Positions 7,368 to 37,593 are shown, numbered from the stretch's first letter. The stretch is 64,000 bases of DNA from Bacteroidales bacterium (GCA_015060445.1 SUYL01000042.1:29594-93593); one strand, 5' to 3'. Notes: generated from the sequence alone by a model not told the origin. Program-made: numbers and translations.

Positions 7368-7994
7368 ATGAATAAGCAATTACAAGAAATAGGAATTATA
7401 CCAATTACAACTTCAATTATTGAATCGTTATATCCAGCACTCAAGTCAGCGGATAAGAAGGTTGTCTGGCTTGAGAAGAATGGATATATTATAAGGTTGA
7501 AGAGAGGGCTCTATGTTGTGAATCCCGAATATTCTGGAAAAATGCTTTCAAGTGAACTGATTGCAAATCATCTTTATGCTCCTTCTTATATCTCCATGTC
7601 TACAGCGTTGAGGTACTACGGCTTGATTCCTGAGGCTGTATATACGCATCAGTCAATGACGGTAAAGCATTCCAGAAGTTTTCAAACTCCTATAGGAATT
7701 TACAACTATAAGTACATTGACAGAGAAGCATTCCCTGTAGGAGTAAGAAGTATACATATGGGCGAATATGCATTCCTGATTGCATCACCCGAAAAGGCTT
7801 TGTGCGACCTGATTGCAAACTCTTCCAAGGTCAATCTGCGATTTTTGAAGGATGTAGAAAACTATCTTAAGCATGACATCCGAATGGATATGGATGAATT
7901 CTATAAGTTTGACGCAACTATTTTTGAAGAGTATATAAAGGTAGGCAAGAAGGCCGATTCCATTGCAACTGTACTAAAGTTTTTGAGACGATGA
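7368..7994 (+). CDS. abiEi: type IV TA system AbiEi-family antitoxin
   Basis: N-terminal wHTH (VVWLEKNGYIIRLKRGLYVVNPEY), YISMSTALRYYGLIPE, EKALCDLIA; 4-nt overlap with the downstream AbiEii. Confidence 0.85.
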   Translation: MNKQLQEIGIIPITTSIIESLYPALKSADKKVVWLEKNGYIIRLKRGLYVVNPEYSGKMLSSELIANHLYAPSYISMSTALRYYGLIPEAVYTHQSMTVKHSRSFQTPIGIYNYKYIDREAFPVGVRSIHMGEYAFLIASPEKALCDLIANSSKVNLRFLKDVENYLKHDIRMDMDEFYKFDATIFEEYIKVGKKADSIATVLKFLRR

Positions 7995-13067: not shown

Positions 13068-13958
13068 TCATTTGAAATACTTCTCAATCTGGGAGAGTGG
13101 AAGGTCTTTAACGAGGATCCGTTTTTTTGAATCCAGGAGGTAGAATACCGGAAGGTTCCTCAGGTCATAGATGTTTTCAGAGATGAGTTTCATTCCGTTG
13201 TCACATCCGTTTGTCCAGCCCTGGGGTGTCTCTTTTATGAATTCACGCCATACAGGGGAATCGTCCTGTGTGTATATTGCAAGGAGTGTGAGTGCGCCGG
13301 TTTCCAATGCCCTGTTTATTGCAGTTGAGGTTTTCAGGGCCTCTATTATTCCCTGACATGAGCGACAGTTGGGGTTGTAGAAGAAGAGAAGGGTGTATGG
13401 AGATTCCACCCCGTGCATGCGGACCCCGGTATTGTCGGGAAGAAAATATGTAAAATCTGCTGCCACGCTCCCCTCCGGGTTAAGGGAGAGGAGATGGGCA
13501 TCCTGCATTGCATTGTAACGGGTTATCTCATCCAGTGCATTCTCCTTAAGGTACTCTGCTGCGCAAATGTAGAGATCATGGTTGCGCAGGGGGGAGTCAT
13601 AGTTTACAAGGTATTTGCGGAGCAATCCGGCCATATGGTTCTGCATTGCGGCGTTGGCAGATGCCTTTGCAAGGAAATCCTCAAGATACGGGGCACTTTT
13701 TGCCAGAGGGAGGCGGGAGAGGAGGTCTGCGTAATTTACAAGCGCCATTTCACATGCACGCTCAGGAATTTCCAGGAACAGGGTGTCCGAGAAATTGAAG
13801 TTGGCCCAATAGTTCCCCACCACATAGTTGAACCTCCCCTCTACTGTCCTTATTGTGTCGGGGACAGAAGGGAGCCTGAACTGCTGCTGGCCGCCATTTT
13901 GGGAGTAGCAGGTTGACCAGGCTGTAAGGAGCAATATTGCAAATATGAGCCGTTTCAT
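13068..13958 (-). CDS. DUF5106-like protein with thioredoxin-fold C-terminus
   Basis: TLLFFYNPNCRSCQGIIEAL; NLPVFYLLDSKKRILVKDLPL; signal peptide. Confidence 0.75.
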   Translation of the reverse strand: MKRLIFAILLLTAWSTCYSQNGGQQQFRLPSVPDTIRTVEGRFNYVVGNYWANFNFSDTLFLEIPERACEMALVNYADLLSRLPLAKSAPYLEDFLAKASANAAMQNHMAGLLRKYLVNYDSPLRNHDLYICAAEYLKENALDEITRYNAMQDAHLLSLNPEGSVAADFTYFLPDNTGVRMHGVESPYTLLFFYNPNCRSCQGIIEALKTSTAINRALETGALTLLAIYTQDDSPVWREFIKETPQGWTNGCDNGMKLISENIYDLRNLPVFYLLDSKKRILVKDLPLSQIEKYFK

Positions 13959-14108: not shown

Positions 14109-16880
14109 CTAGTTGTCCTTTACACAGCGCAAGTAATAGTTGCTGTGGTTTACTGTATTGTTGTTTATATTGTTTATGTCTGTTACAAGCACACACATGA
14201 ACGGGTTGTAGTTGTGTATTGCATAACCTCCAACTGTGTATCCAAGAGGATGATATGGATAACCGGTCTGGTTTGGTGCAAATGATGAGCGGGTCATTGA
14301 GAGTACCTCATCATTGTGGTAGTCTGTGTCATTCACCTTTGAGAGCATAAGGATCAACTCTTTCTGTGAAGGGATTCTGTAACCATCAGGACAACCGTAA
14401 TCTCCATCCTTGCCGCTGTTTATGATATTAGTCCAAGTGTACTGGCCGTTCCTCAAGTCTGAAGGTCTGGTAAGTTCATCATTAATTGTAAATGATGCAT
14501 ACGGCTTGTTCTGCTCCTCACGCTCTGTATGTCTGGTAAGCATCTCTGTCCTGTAACTGCGCAATGCATTTGAATTGAGGCCGCTGAGTTCCACTACATA
14601 TTTGCCACCCTCCTGTTTTACTGTTGCATAGTCAACCTGAAGCACATCATTCTGCGATGCTATATATTTGCTCTGGTCTGCAGGAGACTCCACGTTAAGG
14701 TTCCTCAAACAGCGTACAGCATGTTTTCTGTTGTTGCTGAAACGCCCTCCGTGCTCATGGTATGGAGATACTGCTGCACCCTCCTCTGCCCAGAATATCT
14801 GTCCTTTTGAGTTGCTGAAGTAGTGGGTTACCACTGGGGTTGTAGGGTAAGTGTAAAGGTGTGCATTCTGGTTTATACCTGCATTTCCAATCCACAGGTC
14901 CTGATACTGGTTTACAGATGCCAAGTACCATTTCATCTCGTTTACATCAAACTCACCGTCACCGTCAGCATCCCTGTTTCTGCTCATACATGCAAGGTAT
15001 GCCTTCCTGTACTCACCTGCGGTTGTCTGAGGATCCCAGTCCCAGTTCCAGGTTGTAATGTCACTCCAGTCTGCCCTCTGGTTGCCGTTATTGTAAACCT
15101 CGGCAATCATGTTCCTTCTGCCGTCATTATTGAATGAAGCAAAATTGGCTGTTGAGTTGCTCCTGTCTGTATTGTCTGAATTTATACCGTAGTTGGGCTG
15201 GATGTTATCAGTCTCATTGAACCACTCTGTTCCCCACGCACTTGCCAAAGAGCCGTCGGTCTTGAAGATGGTCTGGATAGATTTCTGGCGGATAATGTAT
15301 GTTCCCTCAGTAAGGCTGCTGCCGTTTCCTGCCTTGGTGTCGCAAAGGATGAGCATCTCTCGGTTATCTGTATTCACCCATTTGTGCCACTCAGTTGCCT
15401 TATCCTCATAGTAGTACTCATTTACATAACAACTTACCACTATCTGGTCATTGTTGTCAAACAGGTCCAAAGTTTCTGCATTCTGCAAATTCTCCATCAG
15501 TTCCCCCACAGACAACAGGCTGCTGCTGTTGTCACCTGGGTAAGCAACTGTCTGCTGTGAATATACCCCCTGACGTTTTCCGTTTATCACAAACTTAACC
15601 CAATCTGAATCCACACCTGTCTGGTAACCGTTTGTATAAGGAGATTTCACTTTATAAGTAATCTCGCTCTTGCTCTCAAGATCTGCCTTGTTGAAAGTAA
15701 GGATACCGCTTGCATAGTGTGCGTCAAGATCAATCACCTTACCACCGTTCAGGTAAATTACATCACCATCCTCAACACTGCTTTTCTCCTCATCAGAAAC
15801 AACCTCCAGAACTATATCATCAACACCGTTTACAGTAATTGAGTAGATGTATTTTGTATTGCGCCTCACGTTATAGTCGTTCAAATTTCCGTTTACATAT
15901 CCAAGAGGAATGTAATATGTAACCTGTGCCTCTGCATTCTCCTTGCCTGTATAATTATCCTTGTCAAAATCTTTGTAGTGGTCTGCCTTGCCAGAGTAGG
16001 TACCCTTTATAACCACGTAAGCAGAAGAGGCATTTGCCATATCCATACGGTCTCTGTATGCTGCAACATTTGCAGAAGGCTGTTTCCTGTTCTCCATAGG
16101 ATAGAAGAAGATGCTGTCCTTGAAACTGTCGTATGTAAGCATCTCGGTATTGAAGTAGGTACCGTTTGCAACATCAGAAGCCTGCTCAAACAAGTTTGAA
16201 CTCTTAGGGAGATTGCATACCTGGAAATGGGTTGGGGTAAAATCTACACCTTCGCCGCCCTTAATGCTGAACACCACTGTAGCCTGTACCCTTACCAACT
16301 CTATCACTCCCTGAAGGGTGCCGCCGGTTCTTGGGATGTTAACTGAACCATCACCTGCATCATTTGAAGCAGCAACATATTTTCCGCTCATAAGGAACCT
16401 TCCCTCAGTAATTCCCTCAAACTCCTGGCACATGTCAACAGTTGCCTTAAGGAAACTCTCCCTCCCCTTTCTTGCCTGAGCCTTCAGAATCTCTGTAAGA
16501 TCTGTATTGTTGTCATTGAACAATGAAGAATTGGTATTTGCTACTGCGTAGATATATTTCTTTCCGCTCTCAATGCTTGCAATGTCAACTTTGTCTGTTC
16601 CCTGGTTATGGTTGTACATCTGCTCATGCTCCAGATGGAACGAGCCGTCTGCGTTGAACACAACTACAAGCAGGTTGGAAACATACTCAAGATAATCCTC
16701 ATAACTCTCACCGGCCTTTGTCTGTACAAGATCCATCCCAGGGATACCCAGTTTCAATGATATGCTTGTCTCAACTCCCGGCTCATACCGGTTCTCCCTA
16801 TTCACCTCCATATCCTCTCCGGTACACGAAAGCAAAAAGGTTCCGGCCAACAATACCAATATATATCTTAACTCTCTCAT
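14109..16880 (-). CDS. DUF4906-like fimbrial tip/accessory lipoprotein of the Mfa-type pilus locus
   Basis: Lipobox TFLLSC; fimbrillin-like N-terminus; C-terminal AYLACMSRNRDADGDGEFDVNEMKWYLASVNQYQDLWIG..HAVRCLRNL. Confidence 0.7.
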   Translation of the reverse strand: MRELRYILVLLAGTFLLSCTGEDMEVNRENRYEPGVETSISLKLGIPGMDLVQTKAGESYEDYLEYVSNLLVVVFNADGSFHLEHEQMYNHNQGTDKVDIASIESGKKYIYAVANTNSSLFNDNNTDLTEILKAQARKGRESFLKATVDMCQEFEGITEGRFLMSGKYVAASNDAGDGSVNIPRTGGTLQGVIELVRVQATVVFSIKGGEGVDFTPTHFQVCNLPKSSNLFEQASDVANGTYFNTEMLTYDSFKDSIFFYPMENRKQPSANVAAYRDRMDMANASSAYVVIKGTYSGKADHYKDFDKDNYTGKENAEAQVTYYIPLGYVNGNLNDYNVRRNTKYIYSITVNGVDDIVLEVVSDEEKSSVEDGDVIYLNGGKVIDLDAHYASGILTFNKADLESKSEITYKVKSPYTNGYQTGVDSDWVKFVINGKRQGVYSQQTVAYPGDNSSSLLSVGELMENLQNAETLDLFDNNDQIVVSCYVNEYYYEDKATEWHKWVNTDNREMLILCDTKAGNGSSLTEGTYIIRQKSIQTIFKTDGSLASAWGTEWFNETDNIQPNYGINSDNTDRSNSTANFASFNNDGRRNMIAEVYNNGNQRADWSDITTWNWDWDPQTTAGEYRKAYLACMSRNRDADGDGEFDVNEMKWYLASVNQYQDLWIGNAGINQNAHLYTYPTTPVVTHYFSNSKGQIFWAEEGAAVSPYHEHGGRFSNNRKHAVRCLRNLNVESPADQSKYIASQNDVLQVDYATVKQEGGKYVVELSGLNSNALRSYRTEMLTRHTEREEQNKPYASFTINDELTRPSDLRNGQYTWTNIINSGKDGDYGCPDGYRIPSQKELILMLSKVNDTDYHNDEVLSMTRSSFAPNQTGYPYHPLGYTVGGYAIHNYNPFMCVLVTDINNINNNTVNHSNYYLRCVKDN

Positions 16881-16927: not shown

Positions 16928-17983
16928 CTAATTAAAGCCCAAGTTTATTCTGTGTATGTCGTAATAGTCAACTACATCGTAAATGAGGGAAACATTTGTT
17001 TCAACTCCGCTCACTTTTGAAATATTGAAGATATACGAGTGGTTTCTTGTTACATCAAACGGCACACCGTTTTCATCTTTAAAGTTTATAACACCAATTC
17101 CTGCTGCACCGTCATAAGTATAGTGTACCTCAACTGTTATTGGAGAGAGCCCCTCCGCACTGTTGTCCTGCTCAACCACATAAATTGCATCTGAGAACGC
17201 TGTTGTTACATTCAGGTTGCTGTACTGGGCGTCTGAAGTCCTGTTTGCTGCACCTGCAGGAATATATGGAGCCTCGTACTGTACTGCTATGTCACTGCTC
17301 AACGGCGACTGCGACACGCAAAATCCTTTATCCAAAGAATTCTTTACAACTACCTTGTTTATTACAAAACCCTCTATCCCCTTCTTCTCATTCACCCAAA
17401 TGTTAATCTTTGCAAGGGCCTTGTACATGTTGCATGAAAGGGTAACATTTCCATCTACAGGAGCACCAATTTCAACCTCTCCCCACATAGGAATGCTTCT
17501 TCCCGACAAATCCCAGTTACCTGTGCTGTACGCAAAAACTGCACTGTCATAAATGTTCTGAATATTCTGCCCCTTGAAACTGTTGAGCCAGGTAGAGACA
17601 TCTGCTGAGCCGCTCATCTGCTGCTGGTTTATATTGGCCATAAGGACAAGTCTTGAACCTGCTGCCGGTCTTGTAATGGTACCTTTGTATAAGGTCTTCT
17701 CTGTATTCTGCACCAACAGTTCATCTACAAGGTACTGGAACCTGCCGTTCCTGTCAACCAACAATATATACAGGTCATTTATATTATTCTGGCCTCCGGT
17801 GGTATAATCCAAAGTTTCATTGCTGTTGTCAACATCCTTTGTATATGCCGTTCCCGACACCTGCAATGAAAGCCTTACATCAATCATACCGTCCACACCC
17901 CCCACTGCATCATCTTTGGAACAGGACACGAGGATCATACAGCCAACCACCATCATCAATATGTATGATAACAATCTTTTCAT
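16928..17983 (-). CDS. fimbrial tip/accessory lipoprotein (fimbrillin-like)
   Basis: Lipobox MILVSC; NINDLYILLVDRNGRF; position in the pilus operon. Confidence 0.7.
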   Translation of the reverse strand: MKRLLSYILMMVVGCMILVSCSKDDAVGGVDGMIDVRLSLQVSGTAYTKDVDNSNETLDYTTGGQNNINDLYILLVDRNGRFQYLVDELLVQNTEKTLYKGTITRPAAGSRLVLMANINQQQMSGSADVSTWLNSFKGQNIQNIYDSAVFAYSTGNWDLSGRSIPMWGEVEIGAPVDGNVTLSCNMYKALAKINIWVNEKKGIEGFVINKVVVKNSLDKGFCVSQSPLSSDIAVQYEAPYIPAGAANRTSDAQYSNLNVTTAFSDAIYVVEQDNSAEGLSPITVEVHYTYDGAAGIGVINFKDENGVPFDVTRNHSYIFNISKVSGVETNVSLIYDVVDYYDIHRINLGFN

Positions 17984-18002: not shown

Positions 18003-19049
18003 TTAGAAACTCATATCGTCAAATCTCACAATCCACTCATTAATTATAATCTGAGAATCAATCCATTTCATATTCTCGTCGAGGAAGAAGGTCATCTTGT
18101 ACTCATCCTGTCTGTCGAGATACTCCTGGTCATCCATATCATACTGGCCCTGAAGTTTTGCCAAAAGGAACATCTTGATTACCGGAATACGGAGAACTGT
18201 CTCATTTGTAGCCTTGTTCCTTATTGAAAGGATTGCATTCTGGTTCTCAACCAGTCTGCCCACTGTAAGTTCGGCTGTTGCAAAACTTATGTTTGAAAAC
18301 TCCCCGGATTTTGTCTCAGAAGGCTCAACAACATTACCCGACTCATGATGGTATGAATAGTAAGTAAGTTGCTCATCCTCAAGAAGGGTATTGTCATAGT
18401 CCATGTATCCGTTATTGTCGGTGATGGTAAACTCAAGATCCTCCGCAGGGATTCTTACACCGTCCATCTGGTGAAGGATGATCTTCACTGTATTTGTATT
18501 TTTAACCAAAGGAACAACTATCTCCTGGTTAATGGCTGCTCTGGTAGTGAAATTCTGGCTCTCTACCTGACCATGGAACAAAGAGGTAAGTTTGGTATTT
18601 ATTATACCGCCCTGGCCGTCAGACTTGGCATAAACCCTGTCCATTCTGCACTTGAGGTCCTCAATGCTCGCACCGGTTGTAACCAAAGGAACAGAGAAAG
18701 AATCATCATTATTCAAACCTGCCCATGCAATAAGATGATAGTTGCCCGGATCCATGTCCACATCCATTGCATACCCCTCCTGCTTCAGTACATCACCCTC
18801 CTCGGTTTTCTGATACACCAATTTTCCATCATTGTCAAATGCATATAGCGTAACTGATTTAACCTCGTTAGCAAATGCATCTGCATACTTCATATTATAG
18901 TCGTACTTGAACTTTACGCTGTAATTTACTGAACAGTCTACCTCCTTTTCATCAAGGATGGCGTCGCAAGATACTAATGAACTCCCCAACAGCAATGCTG
19001 CAACTAGACTGAAAGAGTATCGTTTAACAAAATTTATATTGGTTTTCAT
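18003..19049 (-). CDS. mfa2-like: FimB/Mfa2-family fimbrial anchor lipoprotein
   Basis: Lipobox SSLVSC; VKSVTLYAFDNDGKLVYQKTEEG; DPGNYHLIAWAGL. Confidence 0.82.
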   Translation of the reverse strand: MKTNINFVKRYSFSLVAALLLGSSLVSCDAILDEKEVDCSVNYSVKFKYDYNMKYADAFANEVKSVTLYAFDNDGKLVYQKTEEGDVLKQEGYAMDVDMDPGNYHLIAWAGLNNDDSFSVPLVTTGASIEDLKCRMDRVYAKSDGQGGIINTKLTSLFHGQVESQNFTTRAAINQEIVVPLVKNTNTVKIILHQMDGVRIPAEDLEFTITDNNGYMDYDNTLLEDEQLTYYSYHHESGNVVEPSETKSGEFSNISFATAELTVGRLVENQNAILSIRNKATNETVLRIPVIKMFLLAKLQGQYDMDDQEYLDRQDEYKMTFFLDENMKWIDSQIIINEWIVRFDDMSF

Positions 19050-19135: not shown

Positions 19136-20989
19136 TTAGAACTCTACGTTTGTGAATCTTACAATCCAAGGAAGTATTTTTGCCTCAAGTGTAAGATAGA
19201 TGCTCTCATCACCACCCTCAATTGCATTCTCCAATTCAGGCATATCCAACTCTGAGAAACCAAACTTCTCAACGCTGCTTACTGCAATTGAATATACATT
19301 GTTACGCATCTTAATGAACTCGTTAGGACCTGCTGTATCTGCCTTGCCGTCGTCAAAGTGTTTGATCTGTGCTGCGTAGTAACAGTATCCGTTCTCATAT
19401 ACAGAGATTCCCAAACCTTTAAGATCATCTGCATCAATTGTTCCGTCTGCATACTGCTGGGTTGTCCAGTTTCCAGGAAGTCCCTCTACTGCGCTGAACA
19501 GAACCTCAAGATCCTTGTAGTATGAATCCTCATATTTGAACAGGGTTACAGGGTTGCCTGAAGCATCTTTAATCTGGCCTTTGAACACTACGCTGGTAGT
19601 CTTGTCCATTGTCTGGTTTGCTGCTGTAACGCCATTCTCAAAAATGTATCCCAAAAGGCCGCCAACTGTTGTAGCCTCAGTTGCATTTGATACAGCACCG
19701 TGGTCTGTTGTAGGAAGGGCTGCAAATGGAAGGGTTGCAACTGCATTCTTGTAAGAAGTCCAAGGGTTTGCAAAGTATGAAGTTCCGTCAAAGTCTCCCT
19801 CTGCATTCTTGTATGATGAATTAGGGTCAAACAGGAATGATGTATTTCCAATTGTTCCAAAAGGTGATCCGTTCTGTGCTCCTGTATGGCGTACATAATA
19901 TGTAGCATTGTTCAGGTTTACAAGGGCATACTCCAACAACTGTACATTATACTCAACTGTACCGCTCTCTGTCATGTTCTTCACACCTGTATAGATTGGG
20001 TAGAAACCCTCAACTGATGCCAACTGGGTATCCTCTACCATAAGTTTTGCAACTGTCTCAACACCGCCAATGTATCCGGTATAAGAAGAAGTGCTGGTGA
20101 AATATTTTGTAGTGCCGTCAATTACTGCAACGTAAATTGATCTTCTCTCGTTAATGTTCTTCTCGTTTGTGGTTGCTGCTGCAAAACCTGAAGAGTAATA
20201 TTTGTATGAATCTGTTGCAGACTGGTAAACCCAACCACCCTCTGTCTGGATAGTATAAGTGTATTTGTCGGCTGTAACTTTATAAGTATTGTTCTCTGCT
20301 GTCTGGCGGTAAGTTGCTTTTGCAAGAACTCTCTCAATGTTTATTGCATTTGCAGGTTTAGCAGGATTCTGCTTGTTGTTTGATGCAGTTACGTTTACTG
20401 TAACCTCACTCTGGTTTGCCATCATGAAATAATCTGCATTCTCACCCATAAGGCCACTAACCTGTCCGCTGTATGTACCGTTAAGGATCTCATCGTAAAT
20501 GGCCTTTGCTGCTGAAGAGTTTGAAGCGCTCTTCTGCTCCAATGCTGCAGGTGGGTTGGCAACTACCATTATTTTATAAAGACCTGTAGAATTTACAAGG
20601 AAACTCTCAGATGGAGTATAACTGCCGTCTGAATTTTTCTGGATTCCTACAGACTGGCTCTCGCCAACTGAATAAACCCTTACAAGACCGTCACCGCCGG
20701 TTGTCTCATCATTGGTGTTGTAGAAGGCCAACAAAATTTTAGAAACTGCATTCTCACCATCTGTTCCAACATGTGAGTGGCCGCTGTCGTTTGCATCACC
20801 GTGGGGATCTCCAGAAGAGTCACCGTCAATTGAACGTGTAGAATTCACTCCCGATACTATATCAAAAGTAAGGTAAGCCTCAGCCCTCTCTGCAGTAGGC
20901 TGGTCGATAGTGGTTGCCAAATCATCTTTTGAGCAAGAAACGGCAAGAAGTCCTGCCAATACGATAGTTAAAAAGAATCTGGTTTTCAT
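19136..20989 (-). CDS. mfa1-like: Mfa1-family major fimbrillin
   Basis: Lipobox AVSC; ENAVSKILLAFYNTND; C-terminal MRNNVYSIAVSSVEKFGFSELDMPE..LEAKILPWIVRFTNVEF. Confidence 0.88.
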   Translation of the reverse strand: MKTRFFLTIVLAGLLAVSCSKDDLATTIDQPTAERAEAYLTFDIVSGVNSTRSIDGDSSGDPHGDANDSGHSHVGTDGENAVSKILLAFYNTNDETTGGDGLVRVYSVGESQSVGIQKNSDGSYTPSESFLVNSTGLYKIMVVANPPAALEQKSASNSSAAKAIYDEILNGTYSGQVSGLMGENADYFMMANQSEVTVNVTASNNKQNPAKPANAINIERVLAKATYRQTAENNTYKVTADKYTYTIQTEGGWVYQSATDSYKYYSSGFAAATTNEKNINERRSIYVAVIDGTTKYFTSTSSYTGYIGGVETVAKLMVEDTQLASVEGFYPIYTGVKNMTESGTVEYNVQLLEYALVNLNNATYYVRHTGAQNGSPFGTIGNTSFLFDPNSSYKNAEGDFDGTSYFANPWTSYKNAVATLPFAALPTTDHGAVSNATEATTVGGLLGYIFENGVTAANQTMDKTTSVVFKGQIKDASGNPVTLFKYEDSYYKDLEVLFSAVEGLPGNWTTQQYADGTIDADDLKGLGISVYENGYCYYAAQIKHFDDGKADTAGPNEFIKMRNNVYSIAVSSVEKFGFSELDMPELENAIEGGDESIYLTLEAKILPWIVRFTNVEF

Positions 20990-21182
20990 GTCACTTATTT
21001 TTTAAATGTTGTTGTTATTGTTTTTCCTGCTGCAAAGGAAATCCAATGTGAACAACATCTTAAATGGCATTTTTTTCAAAAATCATAGCCATTTTAATAA
21101 GCGGCAAAAAAGACTAAAACAGAGGGGTAGAGAGGGGCATTTTGAATGATTAAGCAACCATTTTGACTAATTTGCCACACCA

Positions 21183-22415
21183 TCATTTTACCGGAAGGGT
21201 AAACCAGAAACATGATCCCTCTCCAGGTTTTGAATCTACACCAATCTCCCCACCAAGTTCTTCAACTATTCTTTTACAGATATGCAAGCCAAGCCCCCAT
21301 CCGTTTATATCTTTATTCAATTTTACAAGGCGATTGAAAATCCTCACCCTGTCTTTTTCCTCTATACCTATACCTGTATCCTTAACACATATCTTTATAA
21401 AATTTGTTGGGAGCATCTCATACCATAATCTTATCTCACCTGAATTTGTGAATTTGAATGCATTGTTAATAAGGTTTGATATTACCTGCTGCACCCTGTG
21501 AACATCTGTGACAATAGTGCATTCGGGCAAAGTTTGGTCCAAGTGCAGTTCCACACCATTAGGGAACCTCAATCTTGAAAGGAGAACTATATCCCTGCAA
21601 ACGGCATTTATATCTGTAGGGGCCTCCTTATACTCCATTGTTCCTGATTCTATCTTTGACAAGTCAAGCAATTCGGCAACAATTCTGGCAAGCCATTCAG
21701 AATTCCTCTTCACAATTGAGTAGAACTCCTTACGGTCCTCATAGTCATCTGTCTGTATCAGAAGTTCAGAAAAACTCACAATAGAGTTCAGAGGGGTTCT
21801 TATCTCATGGTTCACATTTGCAATAAATGAACTGATGAGCATATTCAGTTCTTCTGCCTTCTCCTTGGCTGCAATAAGTTCCTCCCTTTTCTTCTCATCT
21901 GCCTGCCGGCTCAACCTCAACTGTATGCTCAGGCTCAGGATTCCTGCAACCTGTGTAAACCATTGCAGGGCAATCTCATCAAGAGAATCATAATCCTTTA
22001 CAAAGTCAATGCCCACATATCCCCAAATTGCTCCGTTTATAAGGAGAGGCTCAACCAGTATGGATTTTATATTCTGTTCCTTCAGAATTTCATACTCGCT
22101 GCTTGCCTGAGGAGGGAGATCCTCAAGTTTGTGTACTATAATAGGATTGTCAGATATTATCTGCTCATTCCACCATGGTGTTGCATCAAAAGGGACACCC
22201 TGAAGTTGGTCTATCTCTGCAAGAGAACTATTTGACACAACTTCATATATGCAGTTCTGCACATTGCACGAATAATCATAAGAGAAGATGAAAGCCCTGT
22301 CGCCTTCCAATTTCTCCATTGCCTCAAGAAGGATATCATTTATACCTTCATCCAAATTCTTTGAATGGAGCAAATGCGACATTATCCTGTAAAAATCTTT
22401 CTGACGTCTGTACAT
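21183..22415 (-). CDS. GAF-domain sensor histidine kinase
   Basis: NVNHEIRTPLNSIVSFSELL, NLINNAFKFTNSG, DTGIGIEEKD, WGLGLHICKRIVEELGG. Confidence 0.92.
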   Translation of the reverse strand: MYRRQKDFYRIMSHLLHSKNLDEGINDILLEAMEKLEGDRAFIFSYDYSCNVQNCIYEVVSNSSLAEIDQLQGVPFDATPWWNEQIISDNPIIVHKLEDLPPQASSEYEILKEQNIKSILVEPLLINGAIWGYVGIDFVKDYDSLDEIALQWFTQVAGILSLSIQLRLSRQADEKKREELIAAKEKAEELNMLISSFIANVNHEIRTPLNSIVSFSELLIQTDDYEDRKEFYSIVKRNSEWLARIVAELLDLSKIESGTMEYKEAPTDINAVCRDIVLLSRLRFPNGVELHLDQTLPECTIVTDVHRVQQVISNLINNAFKFTNSGEIRLWYEMLPTNFIKICVKDTGIGIEEKDRVRIFNRLVKLNKDINGWGLGLHICKRIVEELGGEIGVDSKPGEGSCFWFTLPVK

Positions 22416-22516: not shown

Positions 22517-23968
22517 TTATTTGCCAAATACCTCAAAATCCTTACGCTTCTTGGCAACTTCCTCCAGGTTTGCCGCAGCCTCCTTTATCCCTTTCTCCTG
22601 AGCCCTCTTGAAGTAACTCTCCGCTGCATCCAAATCGCCCTGCAAGAGTTTCAGCACACCGTAGTTATTAAGTGTTGCACCCTCATCCTGAGATGCTTTC
22701 TGCAAGAAACGTACAGCCCCGTTGAGATTTCCCTGTTCCAGTTCTATGGCGGCAGCATTGATGTTTGCTGTAGGATCAGTAGGGAACATCCTTACTGCCA
22801 CGTCAAATACCTCTTTGAACTCAGCACTTCCATGCGGATAGGTCTGGGCTACAAGATACATCTCCTGCAGGCTCAACTGCTGCGGACGCTCTTTTATTAT
22901 CCGTTTTGCCTCCTCAAGGTCAAATGCACGTACAGTGTAGAATACCAGGTAGTCCGAGTGTCTCAAACCAGGATAAACATCTCTATACAATTTTGCATAA
23001 GCCTCCGGAAAACGGGTCTTCAGTTCGGTCTCCTTAGCGTCCTCTTTTCCGGAAACCACACTGTTTATGATGTCAAGGATTGCATCCCTGTCTGCCAAAT
23101 CTGATTTCTCCACATAACTCTTCAATCCGGCCCAATCCTCAGGGGTACTGGTTACCTTAAAGATATCCTCAGGGAAATCATACTCCCCCATAACATATTT
23201 CTTAAGAGCCTCTGCCCTACCCTGGGCCAATCTTGCATTGTTCTTGTATCCACCCTCAGGTGATGCATAACCGTCTATATGTATGCCGGTTATCTTCACA
23301 TTCTCATCCTCCTTCACCACATCAATGGTACGTTTGATCTCCCTCAACTCGTCGGGATTACGGCGGTACTCAGGATAGATGGTTATCTTGTTTACAGGGA
23401 AATCGAGGTATGCCCTGCCCTGCTCCGTACGGTTCTTTATCTGCTCTACCTGCGGCTCAACAAACACTACAAGAGGCTTTACAGTGTATCTCTCCAGGTA
23501 TGCACTTGTAACATACTGGTTACCTTCATCCTCCTTGCAGTCTGCACACCCCTTTATCTCACTTGCCAGTTCAAGGTCTGCACCATGCATCCATTTCTGG
23601 TAATCTGTTCTGGTTGTGTAGTTTATTGTCTGGTTGCTCCCTTTCTCCCTGCGCACTACAGAGTATGCATTCTGCGGCACATCATTGGAACGCTCATGTA
23701 TAATTGCCCTGTTGCGTCCATACACAAGGACCTCGGGAAGAGTAATCACATGGGTGCCTGTGCTGTCCTTCAATACAGGGGTTATGGTAAGTACATTGTT
23801 TGTATTTATCTCCAGATTGCCCGGAACTGTAATGTCCATTGTAACTACAACCTGCCTGTTCTCATCTATAAGTATAGACTGGTTGCCTACAAGCAGTTTG
23901 CCGTTCTGAGCGGCAGCAGTGCCTGTAATGAATATTGATGCCAATAATATATATCGTAAAAGTCTCAT
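22517..23968 (-). CDS. DUF3868 / OmpA-like C-terminal protein of the fimbrial locus
   Basis: ITGIHIDGYASPEGGYKNNARLAQGRAEALKKYV OmpA-like segment; TPR-like C-terminus; adjacent to DUF3575. Confidence 0.85.
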   Translation of the reverse strand: MRLLRYILLASIFITGTAAAQNGKLLVGNQSILIDENRQVVVTMDITVPGNLEINTNNVLTITPVLKDSTGTHVITLPEVLVYGRNRAIIHERSNDVPQNAYSVVRREKGSNQTINYTTRTDYQKWMHGADLELASEIKGCADCKEDEGNQYVTSAYLERYTVKPLVVFVEPQVEQIKNRTEQGRAYLDFPVNKITIYPEYRRNPDELREIKRTIDVVKEDENVKITGIHIDGYASPEGGYKNNARLAQGRAEALKKYVMGEYDFPEDIFKVTSTPEDWAGLKSYVEKSDLADRDAILDIINSVVSGKEDAKETELKTRFPEAYAKLYRDVYPGLRHSDYLVFYTVRAFDLEEAKRIIKERPQQLSLQEMYLVAQTYPHGSAEFKEVFDVAVRMFPTDPTANINAAAIELEQGNLNGAVRFLQKASQDEGATLNNYGVLKLLQGDLDAAESYFKRAQEKGIKEAAANLEEVAKKRKDFEVFGK

Positions 23969-23986: not shown

Positions 23987-24580
23987 TTAGAATACATAAA
24001 TCAAGTTGATTGCAGCCTTGGTAGGTCCAAAATAGTGGTCTTTGCCATCCGGCAGTTTATCGCCACAATCCTCACATTCATACTTCTCCCAATCTATATA
24101 TGCATATCCCAGGCCCAGGTTAAGACCAAGATTCCAATGTTTTCCCAGAATCCACTGATGGCCCCAACTTACACCACCACCGTAAAAGTTACCTTTATAA
24201 CGGTAACGGCCCAGATCATCAAGCGGAGAAAACGGGAGGTCTATACCTGTAGTCTTAAAGACACCACCCATAAGATGTACACCAAAGAAATGTCCGTTGA
24301 ACTTGTCACAAAGCCAATAGCGCAACTCTGGGGCAACCATGCCCAGTTTGAGCATCTTGTCACCCACACCGTTCTCTGTTGACTTGTAACTCCATGGATT
24401 GAAATAGAGTGGAACATCAATTGTCCACTTAGGTGCTATGCCTACTTCCACTCCAACATTGGGGATGAGCAGCGCATCCATAGGCACATTAGTTTTTAAT
24501 GCTACTTGTCCGAAAAGGCATGTAGAGGCAAATAAACCTAACGCCATTAAAAAGAATTTTCTTAACAACATAATTTTCAC
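23987..24580 (-). CDS. DUF3575 outer-membrane-type protein
   Basis: LKTNVPMDALLIPNVGVEVGIAPKWTIDVPLYFNPW..ELRYWLCDKFNGHFFGVHLMGG. Confidence 0.88.
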   Translation of the reverse strand: MKIMLLRKFFLMALGLFASTCLFGQVALKTNVPMDALLIPNVGVEVGIAPKWTIDVPLYFNPWSYKSTENGVGDKMLKLGMVAPELRYWLCDKFNGHFFGVHLMGGVFKTTGIDLPFSPLDDLGRYRYKGNFYGGGVSWGHQWILGKHWNLGLNLGLGYAYIDWEKYECEDCGDKLPDGKDHYFGPTKAAINLIYVF

Positions 24581-24753
24581 TCCTTCAAAATTTAAATGTT
24601 TGTCAATTGCTTTAAGTTTTCATGTGTTGCAAAAGTACCGCAATAAGAACTATGGGAAGATTGGTAATTCCATCTTTATTAAGAGGTAATTTTTCCAGAG
24701 TGAATTTTGAACGATACAGGCTCAAAAAATGTTCTTTAGGCAGGAGATTTTAC

Positions 24754-24829
24754 CCTATATATATATATAGGTGTAACCCCCGAGTGAATGATACACCTAT
24801 CATTCTGATTATGAGGGGTATATCATTCA
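24754..24829. promoter_or_regulatory. cluster of inverted/direct repeats in the divergent intergenic region (candidate operators)
   Basis: 18-bp palindrome CCTATATATATATATAGG (24754-24771); ATAGGTGTA/TACACCTAT (24767-24775/24792-24800); TGAATGATA/TATCATTCA (24785-24793/24821-24829) with another TATCATTC at 24798-24805. Confidence 0.65.
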
Positions 24830-24862
24830 TTAAACAGTGGTATTTTAATCAATCGTATGCAA

Positions 24863-24928
24863 TTTGGTCATAACATCTGCATTTTGTTCATAAAAAATTT
24901 GGAGGGTTGAATTAAATACATACCTTTG
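24863..24928 (+). promoter_or_regulatory. direct repeats TTTGgTCATAA/TTTGtTCATAA followed by a -33/-7 promoter
   Basis: Repeats at 24863-24873 and 24883-24893 (20-bp period), -33 TTTGG at 24898-24902, -7 TACCTTTG at 24921-24928. Confidence 0.6.
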
Positions 24929-24986
24929 CACCAGGTGTTAAGTGGAAAATCATTCAAAACAGTAAAATTTTTAAAAACCTTTGAAT

Positions 24987-25586
24987 ATGAAAACAAGACA
25001 TTTTTTATTGGCCGCACTACTTATTATGGCATTGACATCATGCTCTGCTGAATTAATCAGCCCTGCTGAAGATATGCCCGCCAAAAGTGTTCTTGAGACA
25101 GAATACAACGCCCTTAAAATATCTTCAGTTGACGCACAGACCGCTTCACTACCTGCAATTTCAATGACAGAGGCTGAAAACATACTCAAATCTTTGCGCT
25201 CACACAAGAATGCAAAAGAGGAATTTCAGGTAAGCACACATAATGAAGGTGATGCACATCTTTGGGATCTGCTTATGAAACAGACTATAGACAACAAGTA
25301 TATATTTACCATCCAACTGCACCTTACATCATACGATGACGGTTCTCTGTTCTATAACGGATATGACACTGAGTGTTCATCAAAAATTATTGCCTGGAAA
25401 GTTGGAGGTTTCAGTTTTGAGTCTGACAAGACAGATTCTGATGTCTTCAAATTCAAATCTGCAAGCAACCTTTTCTTCAAGATTGCCTCCGATTCAGGAG
25501 AACCTGCATATTATAAGGTAAATGTTGCAATCCAAGGCAATTACCATTCAGATACACAGACATCAAACTATACATATACTTTGTAA
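24987..25586 (+). CDS. hypothetical lipoprotein
   Basis: MKTRHFLLAALLIMALTSCSAE lipobox; ATG at 24987; no recognised domain. Confidence 0.75.
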   Translation: MKTRHFLLAALLIMALTSCSAELISPAEDMPAKSVLETEYNALKISSVDAQTASLPAISMTEAENILKSLRSHKNAKEEFQVSTHNEGDAHLWDLLMKQTIDNKYIFTIQLHLTSYDDGSLFYNGYDTECSSKIIAWKVGGFSFESDKTDSDVFKFKSASNLFFKIASDSGEPAYYKVNVAIQGNYHSDTQTSNYTYTL

Positions 25587-25646: not shown

Positions 25647-28600
25647 ATGAAAAAATTATCCCTGCTCATTGCATTAATAATATGCAATGAGTTTTTTGCT
25701 TTCGGTTTTTTCAACCAGCCCAAATACAAACTGTACAACAAATCAGACGGGCTCAACAACAATACCGTTTCTGCCATATTCCAGGACAGGGAAGGCTATT
25801 TGTGGCTCGGAACCGACATTGGATTAACCAGGAGCGACGGAGTGAATTTCCGCCACTACCCCTTCAGCGAAGCCGGCGGAAGTTTCATTACAAAAATCTA
25901 CCAGTTGAAGGACTCACTCCTGTGGTGCTGGTCCAACAGTTACATAGCCCCCGTATGCTTTGACTCATTCCATGGGAAGGATATTCCAATTGAAGGTCCC
26001 GACGAATCTTACCTGCAGTCACTCAAAGACTTCTGCATTCTGGACAACAAACTCTATGCACTGCAGGGGTCAAAACTTGTGCATCTCCCGGTTGAATACA
26101 AGGAGGCATCCATAGTATTGCAAGCAGAAGAGATACCTTTTGACAAAGAGATAAAGAGGGTTTTCTGCGGCAACAATTCACTGTACCTGCTCCACAAGGA
26201 TGAACTGGTAATATTCAATCCGCAGACTGGGAGCAGGAAGGCAATTTCAATTGCATCTTTAGGCATAACCGCAAGCGGCCAGGTGAGCCATATAAAGGCA
26301 TTTGGAGATTACCTTTTCTTATATGGCGCCGCAATAATGCCGGTATGCTATAATCTGGAATCAGGAAAGAGTGTGGCTCTTGAAACTTCAGACCCACTTG
26401 TAGATATCCAGCAGGTAGACGGGAAGAGATTCATTTACGCAACCTGGAATTCCATATCGGTTCTCACTTTCAGCAGTGAAGACTATACTGCTGCGCAACA
26501 GGATTCATTTGGGCTGTTTGACAATCTGGCCCCATATGCCAGAATATTCAGAAACAGCATCAACGAACTCTACTACGACCAAAGGAACCAGGTTCTGTGG
26601 GTAGGCATTACAGGAAGGGGACTCATGAAGATATCATTCAGGGGAGAGAGGCTAAAATATATAGAGATCCCTTCCAATATAAAGTCTGTAAACGGCCTTA
26701 CCCAGGATATGGGTGGGTATATATGGATAAGTACAGATACCAAAGGTGTATTCCGCAGTACAACCAGCCAGTTGTCTTCCAAGATGCATTTTGAGCAATG
26801 GCCGGAAGCAAAAAACGGGAGGTATGTCCAATACCTGGATCAATTTGGGGGGCTGTGGTTTGGAGACAGTTATGGAAATGTAATTCAACTCAACACCAAC
26901 ACCGGCAAGAAGAATTCCCTCAAGATTGAATGTCCTGCAGAAGAGGGGACAATAACCGCAGAGAATATAAATGCTTTATACCTCAACTCCCGCAACGACC
27001 TGTGGGTTGCAGCAGACAACGGATTGTTCATTTTTGATATGAGCACCAGGAAACTGCTGGCGTATATGCCAAACAGCAGCAAAACGGGCAACATAACCGC
27101 AATATGCCAGGACGGAGGTGGGACCATGTGGCTTGGAACCGAAAGGGGTGTACACATGGCTGTGCGTGAAGGCAATACTGTAAATCTTACTTCCGGATTT
27201 GAAAATAGCGAGAATGTTGCCGCCAACAAGGTCCTTGCCCTGTATGTAAACAATTTCAACCAGTTGTATGCATCATACGAAGACAAGACAATACATATAG
27301 ATGCCAAAAGCAAGGAGGTTGTTGAGGCCCTCATGCTCCACCGCGACTACTCAAGCGGACATATCCGCTGTATCACGGATGACGGCAGCGGGTGTACCTG
27401 GCTTGGCACCGCTTCAGGGGTTGTAATGGTAAACAACGGCACCCTTGAATCATACCTTTACGAACTTGCAGAGAGTTTCATTGAGGTACACAGACTCAAG
27501 GATGGGGAACTTCTATGGGCAACCTCAAACGGACTTGTATATTTCCGTCCCGACGAAATAAAGCATTGGGTTGGCAACAGGGAACTCACAATATCAGATC
27601 TGGAAATCAACTACAGGACATTGGGTGATGACACCCCACGCACATTCAACAAGCAGTTGCAGTTCAAGCACAACGAGAACAACCTGCATATATATGTGAG
27701 CGACATGAGGTTTGGTGCCAGCCGCAGCAAAATTGAATACCGTCTCCTCCCTGTTGAACAGGAGTGGAAATCTACATACGGCAACTGCATTGAACTCAAG
27801 AACCTCAAACAGGGAAAATACACCCTTGAATTGAGGAATCCGCACATCACAGAACAGGAGCCCCCTGTAACCCAAATGAAATTTGTTGTAAAGCCGTTAT
27901 GGATTTTCAGTTTCTGGGGAATCTTCATATCTGCCGCAACACTTTTAGCCATATTGGTTCTCAGTTACATATTTGTTCTGTTAAGATTGCGCAACAGGAA
28001 GAATCTCTCCGCTATGGAGAGCAGGCTGCTCATTAAAATAGACGAACAGAACCAGAGAGAAGAGAGGGCACTGCTGCGCAGCAGGCTCAGACATGAGATT
28101 ATACAGCAACTCAGGACCCCAATTTCTCTGATAATTGCCCCACTAAAGGAGATAACACAAAATGTATCCCTAAGTGAAGATGTAAAGTTGAAATCCAACA
28201 TAGCACTTCTCAACAGTGTTATTGTACAGGAGATCTGTACCCGTCTGGAAGATCTGTTCCTGTTGGAAAAGGATGAAATCTACAAGGTTGCCCCTTACGA
28301 AATAAGCAAGATTTCAAACTCTACAGTATCACCATTGAGGGAGATTATCAATACCAGTACGGTAAAGGTATATTTCGACAAGGACAGACGTTCCGAGAAA
28401 ATCCTGTGGGTTGACCGTACCCGCATAAGTTTCCTTCTCAGGAGCCTTCTTGTACACACTCTCCAGTATCTTGAGTATTCGGGCGAGATGTGGCTCGACC
28501 TCAAAGAGGAGACAGTAAACGGTACCCACTTCTGCATTTTTGTAATAAAGACCAGAAAGATAGCGAAAATACAGAAAGACCGCACCTTCAGTCTCTGCAA

Positions 28601-29672
28601 TGACTATGACGAGGCCATAAACCAGAAACTTCTTGGATGGCAATTGCTCCAATACGTAGCAACAATGCACAAGGGTGATGTAATCTTTAAGGAGAGCGTG
28701 GAAAACGGGCTGGAAGTTTCACTGCATCTTCCTTTCCTTACAAAAGAGGACTGGAAAGATAAAGAAAATGTACAGATAGTTGAGCCAATTATTGCAGAAA
28801 ACGAGCAGGAAGCCCTTGCAAGCATCATTGTTAATGAGTCCTCTGTAGATTTGAACATGGAGGAAGATGGTGATGACCTTCAGCAGGGCAAAATAAAACT
28901 GCTTGTAATAGAAGATAACCCTGATATAAGGCTCTATATGAAAGTTATGTTCGGCAAACAATACAACGTACTGTTTGCCGAGAACGGGGTGGAAGGACTG
29001 AAGATTGCAACAGAGGAGATTCCTAACCTCATCCTCACAGATGTTATGATGCCTGTTATGGACGGATATGAAGTGCTCCGTATCATTAAGGAGAATGCCA
29101 CCACATGCCATATTCCGGTAGTGCTTCTCACTGCGCTTACAGGTGAAGAGGATATAATAAAGGGATTTGACCTTGGTGCAGATGACTACATAACCAAACC
29201 GTTCAATCCTGAAATCCTGAGAGCCAAAGTAAGGCAGTTGGTTAAGGGAAGGGGTGAACTCAAGCAGATATATTCAAAACGGCTCACATCAACCAGTGAA
29301 TCATTGGATGAAATTGAGAGCCATAAAGCAGAGGAAGATCCGCTGATAATTAAAATAAACGAACTGGTTATTGCAAATATCCAAAACCCGGACTTTAATG
29401 TAAAGGAACTTGCCAGCATGCTTTTCATGAGCCAGCCTACCCTTTACAGGAAAGTTAAACAGATAACAGGATTCACCATTATTGAGGTGGTGCGTACAGT
29501 ACGTCTCAAACAGGCTGCCCAACTGCTCAAGACCAGAAAATACGGCATCCAGGAGGTGGCGGAACTGGTAGGTTACAATGATGTACCAACATTCCGCAAG
29601 CACTTTGTTGCATTGTACGGCACAACACCATCTTCATTCTCGGCTTCGTCGGGAGGAGAACAGAAGAACTGA
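25647..29672 (+). CDS. hybrid two-component system regulator (beta-propeller/Y_Y_Y sensor, degenerate kinase, REC, AraC HTH)
   Basis: Repeated LWLGTDxGL motifs; REC LVIEDNPDIR..LTDVMMPVMDG..TKPF; C-terminal AraC HTH; kinase motifs degenerate. Confidence 0.92.
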   Translation: MKKLSLLIALIICNEFFAFGFFNQPKYKLYNKSDGLNNNTVSAIFQDREGYLWLGTDIGLTRSDGVNFRHYPFSEAGGSFITKIYQLKDSLLWCWSNSYIAPVCFDSFHGKDIPIEGPDESYLQSLKDFCILDNKLYALQGSKLVHLPVEYKEASIVLQAEEIPFDKEIKRVFCGNNSLYLLHKDELVIFNPQTGSRKAISIASLGITASGQVSHIKAFGDYLFLYGAAIMPVCYNLESGKSVALETSDPLVDIQQVDGKRFIYATWNSISVLTFSSEDYTAAQQDSFGLFDNLAPYARIFRNSINELYYDQRNQVLWVGITGRGLMKISFRGERLKYIEIPSNIKSVNGLTQDMGGYIWISTDTKGVFRSTTSQLSSKMHFEQWPEAKNGRYVQYLDQFGGLWFGDSYGNVIQLNTNTGKKNSLKIECPAEEGTITAENINALYLNSRNDLWVAADNGLFIFDMSTRKLLAYMPNSSKTGNITAICQDGGGTMWLGTERGVHMAVREGNTVNLTSGFENSENVAANKVLALYVNNFNQLYASYEDKTIHIDAKSKEVVEALMLHRDYSSGHIRCITDDGSGCTWLGTASGVVMVNNGTLESYLYELAESFIEVHRLKDGELLWATSNGLVYFRPDEIKHWVGNRELTISDLEINYRTLGDDTPRTFNKQLQFKHNENNLHIYVSDMRFGASRSKIEYRLLPVEQEWKSTYGNCIELKNLKQGKYTLELRNPHITEQEPPVTQMKFVVKPLWIFSFWGIFISAATLLAILVLSYIFVLLRLRNRKNLSAMESRLLIKIDEQNQREERALLRSRLRHEIIQQLRTPISLIIAPLKEITQNVSLSEDVKLKSNIALLNSVIVQEICTRLEDLFLLEKDEIYKVAPYEISKISNSTVSPLREIINTSTVKVYFDKDRRSEKILWVDRTRISFLLRSLLVHTLQYLEYSGEMWLDLKEETVNGTHFCIFVIKTRKIAKIQKDRTFSLCNDYDEAINQKLLGWQLLQYVATMHKGDVIFKESVENGLEVSLHLPFLTKEDWKDKENVQIVEPIIAENEQEALASIIVNESSVDLNMEEDGDDLQQGKIKLLVIEDNPDIRLYMKVMFGKQYNVLFAENGVEGLKIATEEIPNLILTDVMMPVMDGYEVLRIIKENATTCHIPVVLLTALTGEEDIIKGFDLGADDYITKPFNPEILRAKVRQLVKGRGELKQIYSKRLTSTSESLDEIESHKAEEDPLIIKINELVIANIQNPDFNVKELASMLFMSQPTLYRKVKQITGFTIIEVVRTVRLKQAAQLLKTRKYGIQEVAELVGYNDVPTFRKHFVALYGTTPSSFSASSGGEQKN

Positions 29673-35464: not shown

Positions 35465-36421
35465 ATGAGAGTTGCTGTTCTTGATTTGGGCACCAATGTG
35501 TTCAATATGATTTTAAGCGAATTTACCCCCTCAGGGGAATGCAATACTGTAAAGGAGTTCAAATGTGCGGCCAAATTGGGGGCCGGAGGGCTTTCAGACG
35601 GCAAGATTGCCCCCATAGCCTTTGAGACCGCCTGTGCGGCACTTGACAGGATAATGGCAGTGATTGATGAGGCCGGCGGGGCAGACAGGATAATACCGTA
35701 CGCAACCTCTGCGGTACGCGATGCTGCAAATGGCGTGGAATTTGCTGAGTACATGAACCGCAGATACGGGTTTGAGATAAGGATAATCCCCGGGGAGAGG
35801 GAAGCGGAACTGATATTCAAGGGTATAATGGAATCTGTAGGTGATCTCAGAGGCAGCAGCGGCAGGTTCGGCACCGGAGAGAATGCCCTTATGCTGGACA
35901 TTGGAGGGGGAAGCAATGAATTCATAATTACAGACGGGGCAGAAATTCTCTGGAAAAGGAGTTTCCCGATAGGTATGGCCCGCATGAGGGAGAGATTCAA
36001 CTACACAGATCCCATCCCGCAACAGGTGGTGGAGGAGTTTCTACGGTTCAATGACGGTGTGCTGGGGGAACTTTGGGAGATGGTGGAGAAGTTCCGTCCG
36101 GAAATTTTCATAGGATCGTCGGGATCATTTGATACATTCAAGGACCTTATCTTCAACTGCGGCTATAGGGAATTGCCTTCCATTGAGTTGAAAAAGGGAG
36201 ATCTGGAGGAACTCAACCGCAAACTGGTTGTTTCCACAGCACAAGAGAGGCTGCAGATGCCTGGGATGTCGCAGATAAGGGTGGATTATATTGTGCTGGC
36301 ATCCATATTTACACAATATATCCTGGAAAAAGTGAATCCAAGAGTTGTTTACCAGTCTTCCTTCTCGCTTAAGGAGGGTGGCATGAAAGAAGAGTTTGAC
36401 AATTATTTAAAGAGCATATAA
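35465..36421 (+). CDS. ppx: Ppx/GppA-family phosphatase
   Basis: AVLDLGTNVFNM, ATSAVRDAANG, MLDIGGGSNEFI, GSSGSFDTF. Confidence 0.88.
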   Translation: MRVAVLDLGTNVFNMILSEFTPSGECNTVKEFKCAAKLGAGGLSDGKIAPIAFETACAALDRIMAVIDEAGGADRIIPYATSAVRDAANGVEFAEYMNRRYGFEIRIIPGEREAELIFKGIMESVGDLRGSSGRFGTGENALMLDIGGGSNEFIITDGAEILWKRSFPIGMARMRERFNYTDPIPQQVVEEFLRFNDGVLGELWEMVEKFRPEIFIGSSGSFDTFKDLIFNCGYRELPSIELKKGDLEELNRKLVVSTAQERLQMPGMSQIRVDYIVLASIFTQYILEKVNPRVVYQSSFSLKEGGMKEEFDNYLKSI

Positions 36422-37593
36422 TGAAAGTACTTATTGTAGATGATGAGAAAAGCATCCGCTTTGCCCTTAAGGATATCATTGAGTTTGAGGGGCATGAGGT
36501 TGCACTGGCCGCAGACGGAAAAGAGGGGCTTGAGATGGCTTTGGCAAACAATTATGATGTAATTTTCTCAGATATAAAGATGCCCGGCATAGACGGGGTT
36601 GAACTGCTGGAGAAACTTATGGAGAACGGGGTTGAGGCTGCTGTAGTTATGATTTCCGGCCACGGCTCTATAGATACCGCCGTTGACTGCATTAAGAAAG
36701 GGGCATTTGACTTCATTCAGAAACCCCTGGATTTGAACCGCATACTCATTACCCTAAAGAATGCAACAGACAAGACCTCTTTGGTTAAGGAGACCAAAAT
36801 CCTCAAGAAGAAGGTTGAGAAGGTGGCGGGAATACCCCAGATTGTGGGAGAATCCCCTGCAATTGTAAAGATAAAGGAGATGATTGAGAGGGTGGCCCCT
36901 ACAGATGCCCGCGTGCTGGTTACCGGCTCAAACGGTACAGGAAAGGAACTTGTGGCCCGCTGGCTTCATGAGAAGAGCAACCGCAAGAGCATGCCGTTTG
37001 TGGAGGTGAACTGTGCCGCCATTCCCGGGGAACTGATTGAGAGCGAACTGTTCGGCCATGTTAAAGGGTCGTTTACCGGGGCGGTAAAGGACCATAAGGG
37101 AAAATTTGAGCAGGCAGATGGGGGCACGCTGTTCCTGGACGAGATTGGAGACATGAGCCTGAGCGCACAGGCCAAGGTTCTGAGGGTGCTTCAGGAGAAC
37201 AAATTGAGCCGCGTGGGAAGCGACAAGGATATAAATGTTAAGGTTCGCGTAGTTGCTGCAACCAACAAGAACCTGCTGGAGGAGATTGGGAAGGGGAATT
37301 TCAGGGAGGACCTTTACCACAGGTTGAGTGTGATTGTAATACATGTCCCATCTTTGGCAGACCGCAAGGAGGACATTCCGCTCCTTGTAAACCACTTTAT
37401 TGGGCAGATTTGTGCCGAGACCGGCATGCCGGCCAGAGCCATTGATGCTGACGCTGTGGCAGAACTGCAGAAACACGCCTGGACAGGCAATATAAGGGAA
37501 CTGAGGAACGTTACCGAGAGGCTCCTCATTTTAGGAAACCAGACAATAACCAAAGAGGATGTGCAGATGTACGCCTCTCCACTATTCAGATAA
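36421..37593 (+). CDS. NtrX/NtrC-like sigma-54 response regulator lacking a recognisable C-terminal HTH
   Basis: REC (VDDEKSIR..FSDIKMPGIDG..IQKP) plus AAA+ (TGSNGTGKE, GHVKGSFTGA, GGTLFLDEIGDM); ends shortly after the AAA lid. Confidence 0.93.
   Translation: MKVLIVDDEKSIRFALKDIIEFEGHEVALAADGKEGLEMALANNYDVIFSDIKMPGIDGVELLEKLMENGVEAAVVMISGHGSIDTAVDCIKKGAFDFIQKPLDLNRILITLKNATDKTSLVKETKILKKKVEKVAGIPQIVGESPAIVKIKEMIERVAPTDARVLVTGSNGTGKELVARWLHEKSNRKSMPFVEVNCAAIPGELIESELFGHVKGSFTGAVKDHKGKFEQADGGTLFLDEIGDMSLSAQAKVLRVLQENKLSRVGSDKDINVKVRVVAATNKNLLEEIGKGNFREDLYHRLSVIVIHVPSLADRKEDIPLLVNHFIGQICAETGMPARAIDADAVAELQKHAWTGNIRELRNVTERLLILGNQTITKEDVQMYASPLFR

Follow-up and report, generated by a model that had tools for sequence, protein, structure and literature searches.

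To our knowledge, hybrid two-component systems (HTCSs) are known almost entirely as self-phosphorylating glycan sensors, and pilus control in the gut Bacteroidales is poorly known. In BT4236 of Bacteroides thetaiotaomicron, Gln848 and a CSIP-EK motif have been remarked upon (Gao, Wu, Stock 2024; PMC11253607), and the genes BT4233-36, annotated as DUF3868, DUF3575, and response regulator, go up 2.2-3.3 fold in iron limitation (PMC10434189). This one residue change, in one very probable member of the group described below, is what is already in print; we found no earlier report of the clade, its pilus regulon, or its partner kinase in the literature searched, and a search combining HTCS, fimbriae, and Bacteroides gave no result. 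Here, we describe an HTCS gene at positions 25647..29672 (+) of a 64,000-nucleotide stretch of DNA from Bacteroidales bacterium (GCA_015060445.1 SUYL01000042.1:29594-93593), the whole of which we call the window. Judged by sequence, the encoded protein is no lone mutant, but a member of a conserved clade of kinase-dead, pilus-linked HTCSs.

The reading frame is uninterrupted and translates into 1341 aa, with a signal peptide, a Reg_prop propeller, a Y_Y_Y domain, a transmembrane (TM) segment, degenerate DHp and CA domains, a receiver, and an AraC-type helix-turn-helix (HTH). Pfam matches (E ≤ 10) comprised Reg_prop, Y_Y_Y (aa 691-748, 27717..27890 (+); 22.6 bits, that is, below the cut-off), Response_reg (1e-24), and HTH_18 (3e-18); neither HisKA nor HATPase_c was matched, even at E 10. 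The protein has the Reg_prop sensor, receiver, and AraC HTH of an HTCS in one chain, and lacks both a HisKA domain with its phospho-acceptor His and a HATPase_c domain with its N, G1, and G2 boxes. The receiver (aa 1086-1196, 28902..29234 (+)) keeps ED, the phospho-acceptor Asp1132 (29040-29042), LLTAL, and KPF, and the HTH_18 DNA-binding domain (aa 1255-1332, 29409..29642 (+)) is likewise intact; both the Pfam matches and the residue alignment bear out what an earlier reading of this sequence by a model (the original prediction) had said of these domains. As for the S/CHIP-DK motif, through which the receiver contacts the DNA-binding domain, CHIP (29106-29117) and Lys1269 in helix 8 are present, while the helix-6 Asp position is occupied by Glu1230, adjoining Asp1231.

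In a MAFFT alignment with ~90 HTCSs, the phospho-His column of the DHp domain (aa 811-885, 28077..28301 (+)) is occupied in the window protein by Gln820 (CAG, 28104-28106); every HTCS of that set outside the kinase-dead clade keeps the His. In the CA domain (aa 886-1035, 28302..28751 (+)), the Asn column of the N-box holds His (SLLVH), and DxGxG and GxGLGL are missing. The original prediction had named the same Gln and the same absent boxes, and had inferred a pseudokinase module from them, to be checked for HisKA and HATPase_c, by a structure model, and in orthologues; the module is now strongly supported by decay that is conserved across the clade and by low scores in hidden Markov models (HMMs). 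Scored with HMMs trained on intact HTCSs, the window protein reaches 17.6 bits for DHp and 14.6 bits for CA, far below the lowest scores of the intact training set (62.8 and 81.5 bits), whereas its receiver (144 bits) and HTH (101 bits) lie above the corresponding minima (131 and 94.8 bits). We regard the window HTCS as almost certainly kinase-dead.

The fold, by prediction, has outlasted the motifs. An AlphaFold model of the cytoplasmic part, from which, together with the sequence, the ATP pocket was judged, retains the two-helix DHp hairpin, the alpha/beta sandwich of CA, the receiver, and the HTH (mean pLDDT 81, pTM 0.52), although residues 190-210 of the model, in the CA part, are disordered and the positions of the domains relative to one another are unreliable at this pTM. 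Foldseek searches with the model returned histidine kinases and receivers, and DivL (4q20), a pseudokinase, ranked with the DHp-CA matches that had the highest TM-scores. Among the copies of the genus, where dS is unsaturated, the dN/dS of DHp and CA is ~0.07-0.10, and dN/dS is low in every domain; such purifying selection on DHp and CA indicates that the degenerate module is maintained.

The kinase-dead clade consists of 29 genes in 28 genomes, the window's genus included, and belongs mainly to Phocaeicola and Bacteroides, in a sample that covers part of the Bacteroidaceae; the species named among its members are Phocaeicola faecalis (L040) and Bacteroides neonati (G859, L190). In a tree built without the kinase columns (a quick method, LG+G4), a single branch (SH-aLRT 100) separates intact from kinase-dead HTCSs, and both tree and motifs place the window protein with the other His-less, pilus-linked HTCSs. 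The kinase motifs are decayed in all members, with Q, R, K, or E in the His column and the sole His found in a broken gene (G889). Across the clade, DHp scores range from 16.5 to 44.5 bits and CA scores from 1.7 to 65 bits, that is, below both intact minima; HTH scores resemble those of intact HTCSs, as do receiver scores except in three copies. Within the genus, 4 of 39 genomes have the gene with these same substitutions; relative to the window protein, the three further orthologues show identities of 82%, 76% (C-terminal part), and 67%. The Bacteroides members L193, L194, and L195 have Gln at residue 848 and CSIP-EK, an exact match to the description of BT4236, which very probably belongs to this clade, to go by residue numbering, motif, and gene order rather than its own sequence.

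Some relatives are damaged: G834 and G889 are broken genes, and in G493 an insertion of ~42 kb splits the HTCS gene (G493:C3:131133 and 173810; L147, L162). G493 also has a PDDEXK_2 transposase gene between DUF3868 and fimbrillin. In-frame stops in nine Bacteroides copies proved to be an artefact, as the alignment had overrun the natural stop codon.

The original prediction overlooked the pilus locus around the HTCS gene. Directly upstream lies its conserved neighbor, a DUF5033 gene (24981..25586 (+)) whose product has a lipoprotein-like signal (LTSCS), and neighbor scans found an operon running in the opposite direction, all on the (-) strand. It opens with DUF3575 (23987..24580) and a DUF3868/OmpA-TPR protein (22517..23968), and includes the major fimbrillin (19136..20989; Pfam Fimbrillin_C), an Mfa2 anchor protein (18003..19049; Pfam Mfa2), a second Mfa2-like protein (16928..17983; Pfam), and a FimA-like minor or tip pilin (14109..16880; Pfam P_gingi_FimA). 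The cluster ends in a DUF5106-thioredoxin-like protein (13068..13958), which is often conserved with it. Fimbrillin and Mfa2/FimB anchor genes together identify a type V (Fim/Mfa) pilus, with DUF3575-DUF3868 divergent from DUF5033-HTCS. SusC/SusD genes were found nowhere among the neighbors scanned over ~1-33 kb of the window (one gene was covered from 33-64 kb), which, within that scan, agrees with the original prediction.

This arrangement is a property of the clade. DUF5033 adjoins the HTCS gene in 27 of 29 loci (the others are G715, where an IS21-type element adjoins the HTCS gene, and the broken G889), nearly always divergent from a DUF3575-DUF3868-fimbrillin-Mfa2 operon. Wherever the contig is long enough, pilus genes are present, with two exceptions: the P. 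faecalis locus has only DUF3575 and DUF3868 of the pilus genes, and next to the broken copy in G834 stand fimbrillin and Mfa2, with DUF3575/DUF3868 unrecognized. Intact sister HTCSs, in all five cases examined, are divergent from SusC-type TonB receptors. On the tree, kinase loss falls together with the switch of genomic partner, in an order that the data do not set, and the HTCS has probably been rewired from sugar sensing to pilus control. Since DUF3575 genes are present in 38 of the 39 genus genomes, several of them in pilus operons without HTCS or kinase, the regulator is an add-on to a common pilus operon.

How might the HTCS act on this operon? Repeat analysis and a matrix scan predict four half-sites on the (+) strand of the divergent promoter region (24581..24980, serving both strands), at 24817-24830, 24839-24852, 24859-24871, and 24879-24891 (starts 22, 20, and 20 bp apart), and one in reverse orientation at 24784-24797 (-). 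The four stand just upstream of what we take, by eye, to be the Bacteroidota-type promoter of DUF5033-HTCS (24898..24928 (+): TTTG, 19 bp, TACCTTTG). All 25 of the divergent regions examined contain the half-site GGTRTATCATTCAT in direct repeat, at intervals of 20-22 bp, and the summed self-match of the divergent regions reaches 259 at lag 22, against shuffle maxima of at most 233. In published reconstructions, HTCS motifs take the form of direct repeats spaced 21 bp apart on average (PMC3878776), and the window region shows that same form, with a period of ~21 bp. A matrix trained without the loci of the window's genus gives its three highest scores in the 64-kb window to 24817, 24784, and 24839. 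The consensus alone (≤2 mismatches) gives 4 matches in the window versus 1.8 expected, which is not rare at such length; the operator argument therefore rests on two exact matches, position, repetition, and conservation.

A second predicted operator, two half-sites 21 bp apart, lies upstream of the fimbrillin gene (21142..21176 (-); p 0.01 versus shuffles). Such fimbrillin-upstream repeats beat shuffles at p ≤ 0.01 in 18 of 20 loci, the window included, and at 0.03 in one more; they were not found in sister pilus operons without an HTCS, and five SusC-linked intact HTCS loci used as controls gave one weak signal (0.025). Taken together, it is very likely that the HTCS regulates the pilus locus through these repeats.

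Between DUF3868 and fimbrillin, the window operon carries a soluble GAF histidine kinase (GAF-HK, 21183..22415 (-); neighbor scans and alignment), a candidate kinase in trans whose H, N, G1, G2, and G3 boxes are complete, as they are in all copies. Full-length GAF-HK is present in 4/4 genus genomes with the pseudokinase HTCS versus 0/35 of the others, and in G759 and G879 it sits at the corresponding place in the operon. In the clade, the six lowest CA scores all belong to the six GAF-HK loci (1.7-16.2 bits; other members at least 23), whose receivers are intact; five of these loci are on the tree, where they group as one subclade (SH-aLRT 99). In genome G000, HisKA-type kinases other than GAF-HK all adjoin a receiver gene by coordinates, except one that is NtrY-like; this would make GAF-HK and the pseudokinase HTCS, ~3 kb apart, natural partners.

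Several observations weigh against such a partnership. Most branches of the clade have no operon kinase and nonetheless keep the receiver Asp; the loci with a kinase represent a single lineage, which reduces their correlation with the lowest CA scores to one event; and the pilus operon is inherited as a unit. G000 is, moreover, an 87% complete metagenome-assembled genome, and its 3.2-kb contig with another GAF-HK copy may be a contaminant. On balance, phosphorylation of the window receiver in trans by GAF-HK is a claim that we consider evenly poised. As partner of the whole clade, GAF-HK was rejected, being absent from most operons. The small contig (G000:C51, L128) bears part of DUF3575, then DUF3868 and GAF-HK, and is 97.8% identical to the G016 locus and ~73% to the G006/G007 loci; its GAF-HK is 74% identical to that of the window, and the contig is probably a co-binned relative or a recent second copy. 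An NtrY-like kinase of the window itself (2393-6037 (-), 1214 aa; HAMP, HisKA, HATPase_c) is a possible partner of a sigma-54 activator at 36421-37593.

Loss of the kinase motifs, a single clade, linkage to the locus, conserved repeats, and an intact candidate partner kinase are all there in the sequences. The explanation toward which we lean, if only somewhat, has a kinase-dead HTCS in control of its pilus locus, with a receiver that, in the window's subclade, is phosphorylated in trans by GAF-HK. The HTCSs of the clade would still be membrane sensors and AraC-type DNA-binding regulators that have lost autophosphorylation. Most likely, the regulator binds the tandem direct repeats at two places, the divergent promoter shared by DUF3575 and DUF5033 and the region ahead of fimbrillin, and would thereby control the type V pilus operon as well as its own. 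In the window's subclade, the soluble GAF-HK, encoded within the pilus operon, probably phosphorylates the intact receiver, an arrangement that could join a periplasmic signal (propeller) to a cytoplasmic one (GAF). Site binding by the regulator, the sign of regulation, the transfer from GAF-HK to the receiver, and the signal sensed are what we infer here. A more far-reaching version, in which the HTCS dismantled its own kinase and handed receiver phosphorylation to a separate cytoplasmic GAF kinase within its target operon, making a two-input switch for a periplasmic ligand and a cytoplasmic signal, while a sister branch dropped receiver phosphorylation altogether (Asp to Glu), is plausible, yet we would put it at rather less than an even prospect.

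The rival that survives best would have the whole clade work without phosphate: a ligand of the propeller moves the DHp helices, which reposition receiver and HTH directly, and GAF-HK serves another receiver. Most branches have no linked kinase, and in three copies (G838 and both of G845; L187, L188, L189) the receiver Asp is Glu, with further receiver positions altered. Glu can imitate phosphate in some receivers. Changes in the interface between receiver and DNA-binding domain also allow phosphate-free DNA binding, and non-canonical motifs there led Gao et al. to suggest this for BT4236 (2024, PMC11253607). The kinase-dead clade may thus also signal without phosphate. Yet the receiver Asp is retained in 25 of the 28 readable members, the window receiver scores as high as those of intact HTCSs, and the window protein keeps CHIP and the helix-8 Lys, an inhibitory contact that phosphate relieves, although Glu replaces Asp at the helix-6 position, with an Asp beside it. 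For the clade as a whole we find this account doubtful, though a serious contender. The original prediction had left the choice between another kinase and phosphorylation-independent signaling, and each finds a place: phosphorylation in trans is favored for the window because an intact, operon-borne GAF-HK co-occurs with the HTCS gene, and phosphate-independent action for at least one other branch because its receiver Asp is Glu.

It is improbable that the dead DHp-CA module acts like DivL or ChrS, docking or heterodimerizing with an active kinase and steering it, beyond linking sensor to receiver. The predicted fold, the DivL match, the purifying selection, and the precedents themselves (DivL, PMC4211667; the ChrS pseudokinase, PMC9491836) are what one might expect in that case, but the module also persists in branches where no kinase is linked. 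That the window protein is a decaying, non-functional regulator is scarcely credible: all catalytic motifs are lost and G834, G889, and G493 are damaged, but most species have full-length open frames, and neutral decay is rejected by the low dN/dS in every domain and by operators conserved across genera. Equally remote is a kinase still active through the upstream His816 (RHEII) and a cryptic ATP pocket, the case that the original prediction saw as its refutation, because His816-Glu817, although invariant in the four genus copies, is not kept in other clade members (G759 and G879 included), and no N, G1, or G2 box exists in an ATP-binding domain that is unrecognizable (CA 1.7-16 bits in the genus).

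Apart from these subjects, the window contains an AbiEii-type toxin gene (7368-8821 (+)); a 208-aa gene lies immediately upstream of it, and the two may be an AbiE-like pair.

For those who study fused sensor-regulators without phosphotransfer of their own, these proteins offer a natural series: intact, His-less, CA-less with an external kinase, and receiver Asp to Glu. The clade also offers a testable regulator and candidate operators for the pili of gut Bacteroidales, with BT4236 of B. thetaiotaomicron as a genetically tractable member. Like BT4236, the window HTCS has Gln for the phospho-His and the same gene order, but its branch differs in an undetectable CA, in CHIP rather than CSIP, and in the operon-borne GAF kinase. 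With the canonical HTCSs of polysaccharide utilization loci it shares the propeller sensor, Y_Y_Y, TM segment, receiver, AraC HTH, and direct-repeat operators of ~21 bp; unlike them, it has no autokinase and is linked to a pilus operon, not to SusC/SusD. DivL (Caulobacter, PMC4211667) and the ChrS pseudokinase (Corynebacterium, PMC9491836) likewise keep DHp-CA and have lost kinase activity, as is predicted for the window protein; they act on separate partners, whereas its dead module is fused to a receiver and a DNA-binding domain. Finally, FimS/FimR of Porphyromonas gingivalis (PMC1974823), likened here by description and not by sequence, exerts two-component control over type V (Fim/Mfa) pili, as the window HTCS is predicted to do, but does so with a classical separate kinase and regulator.

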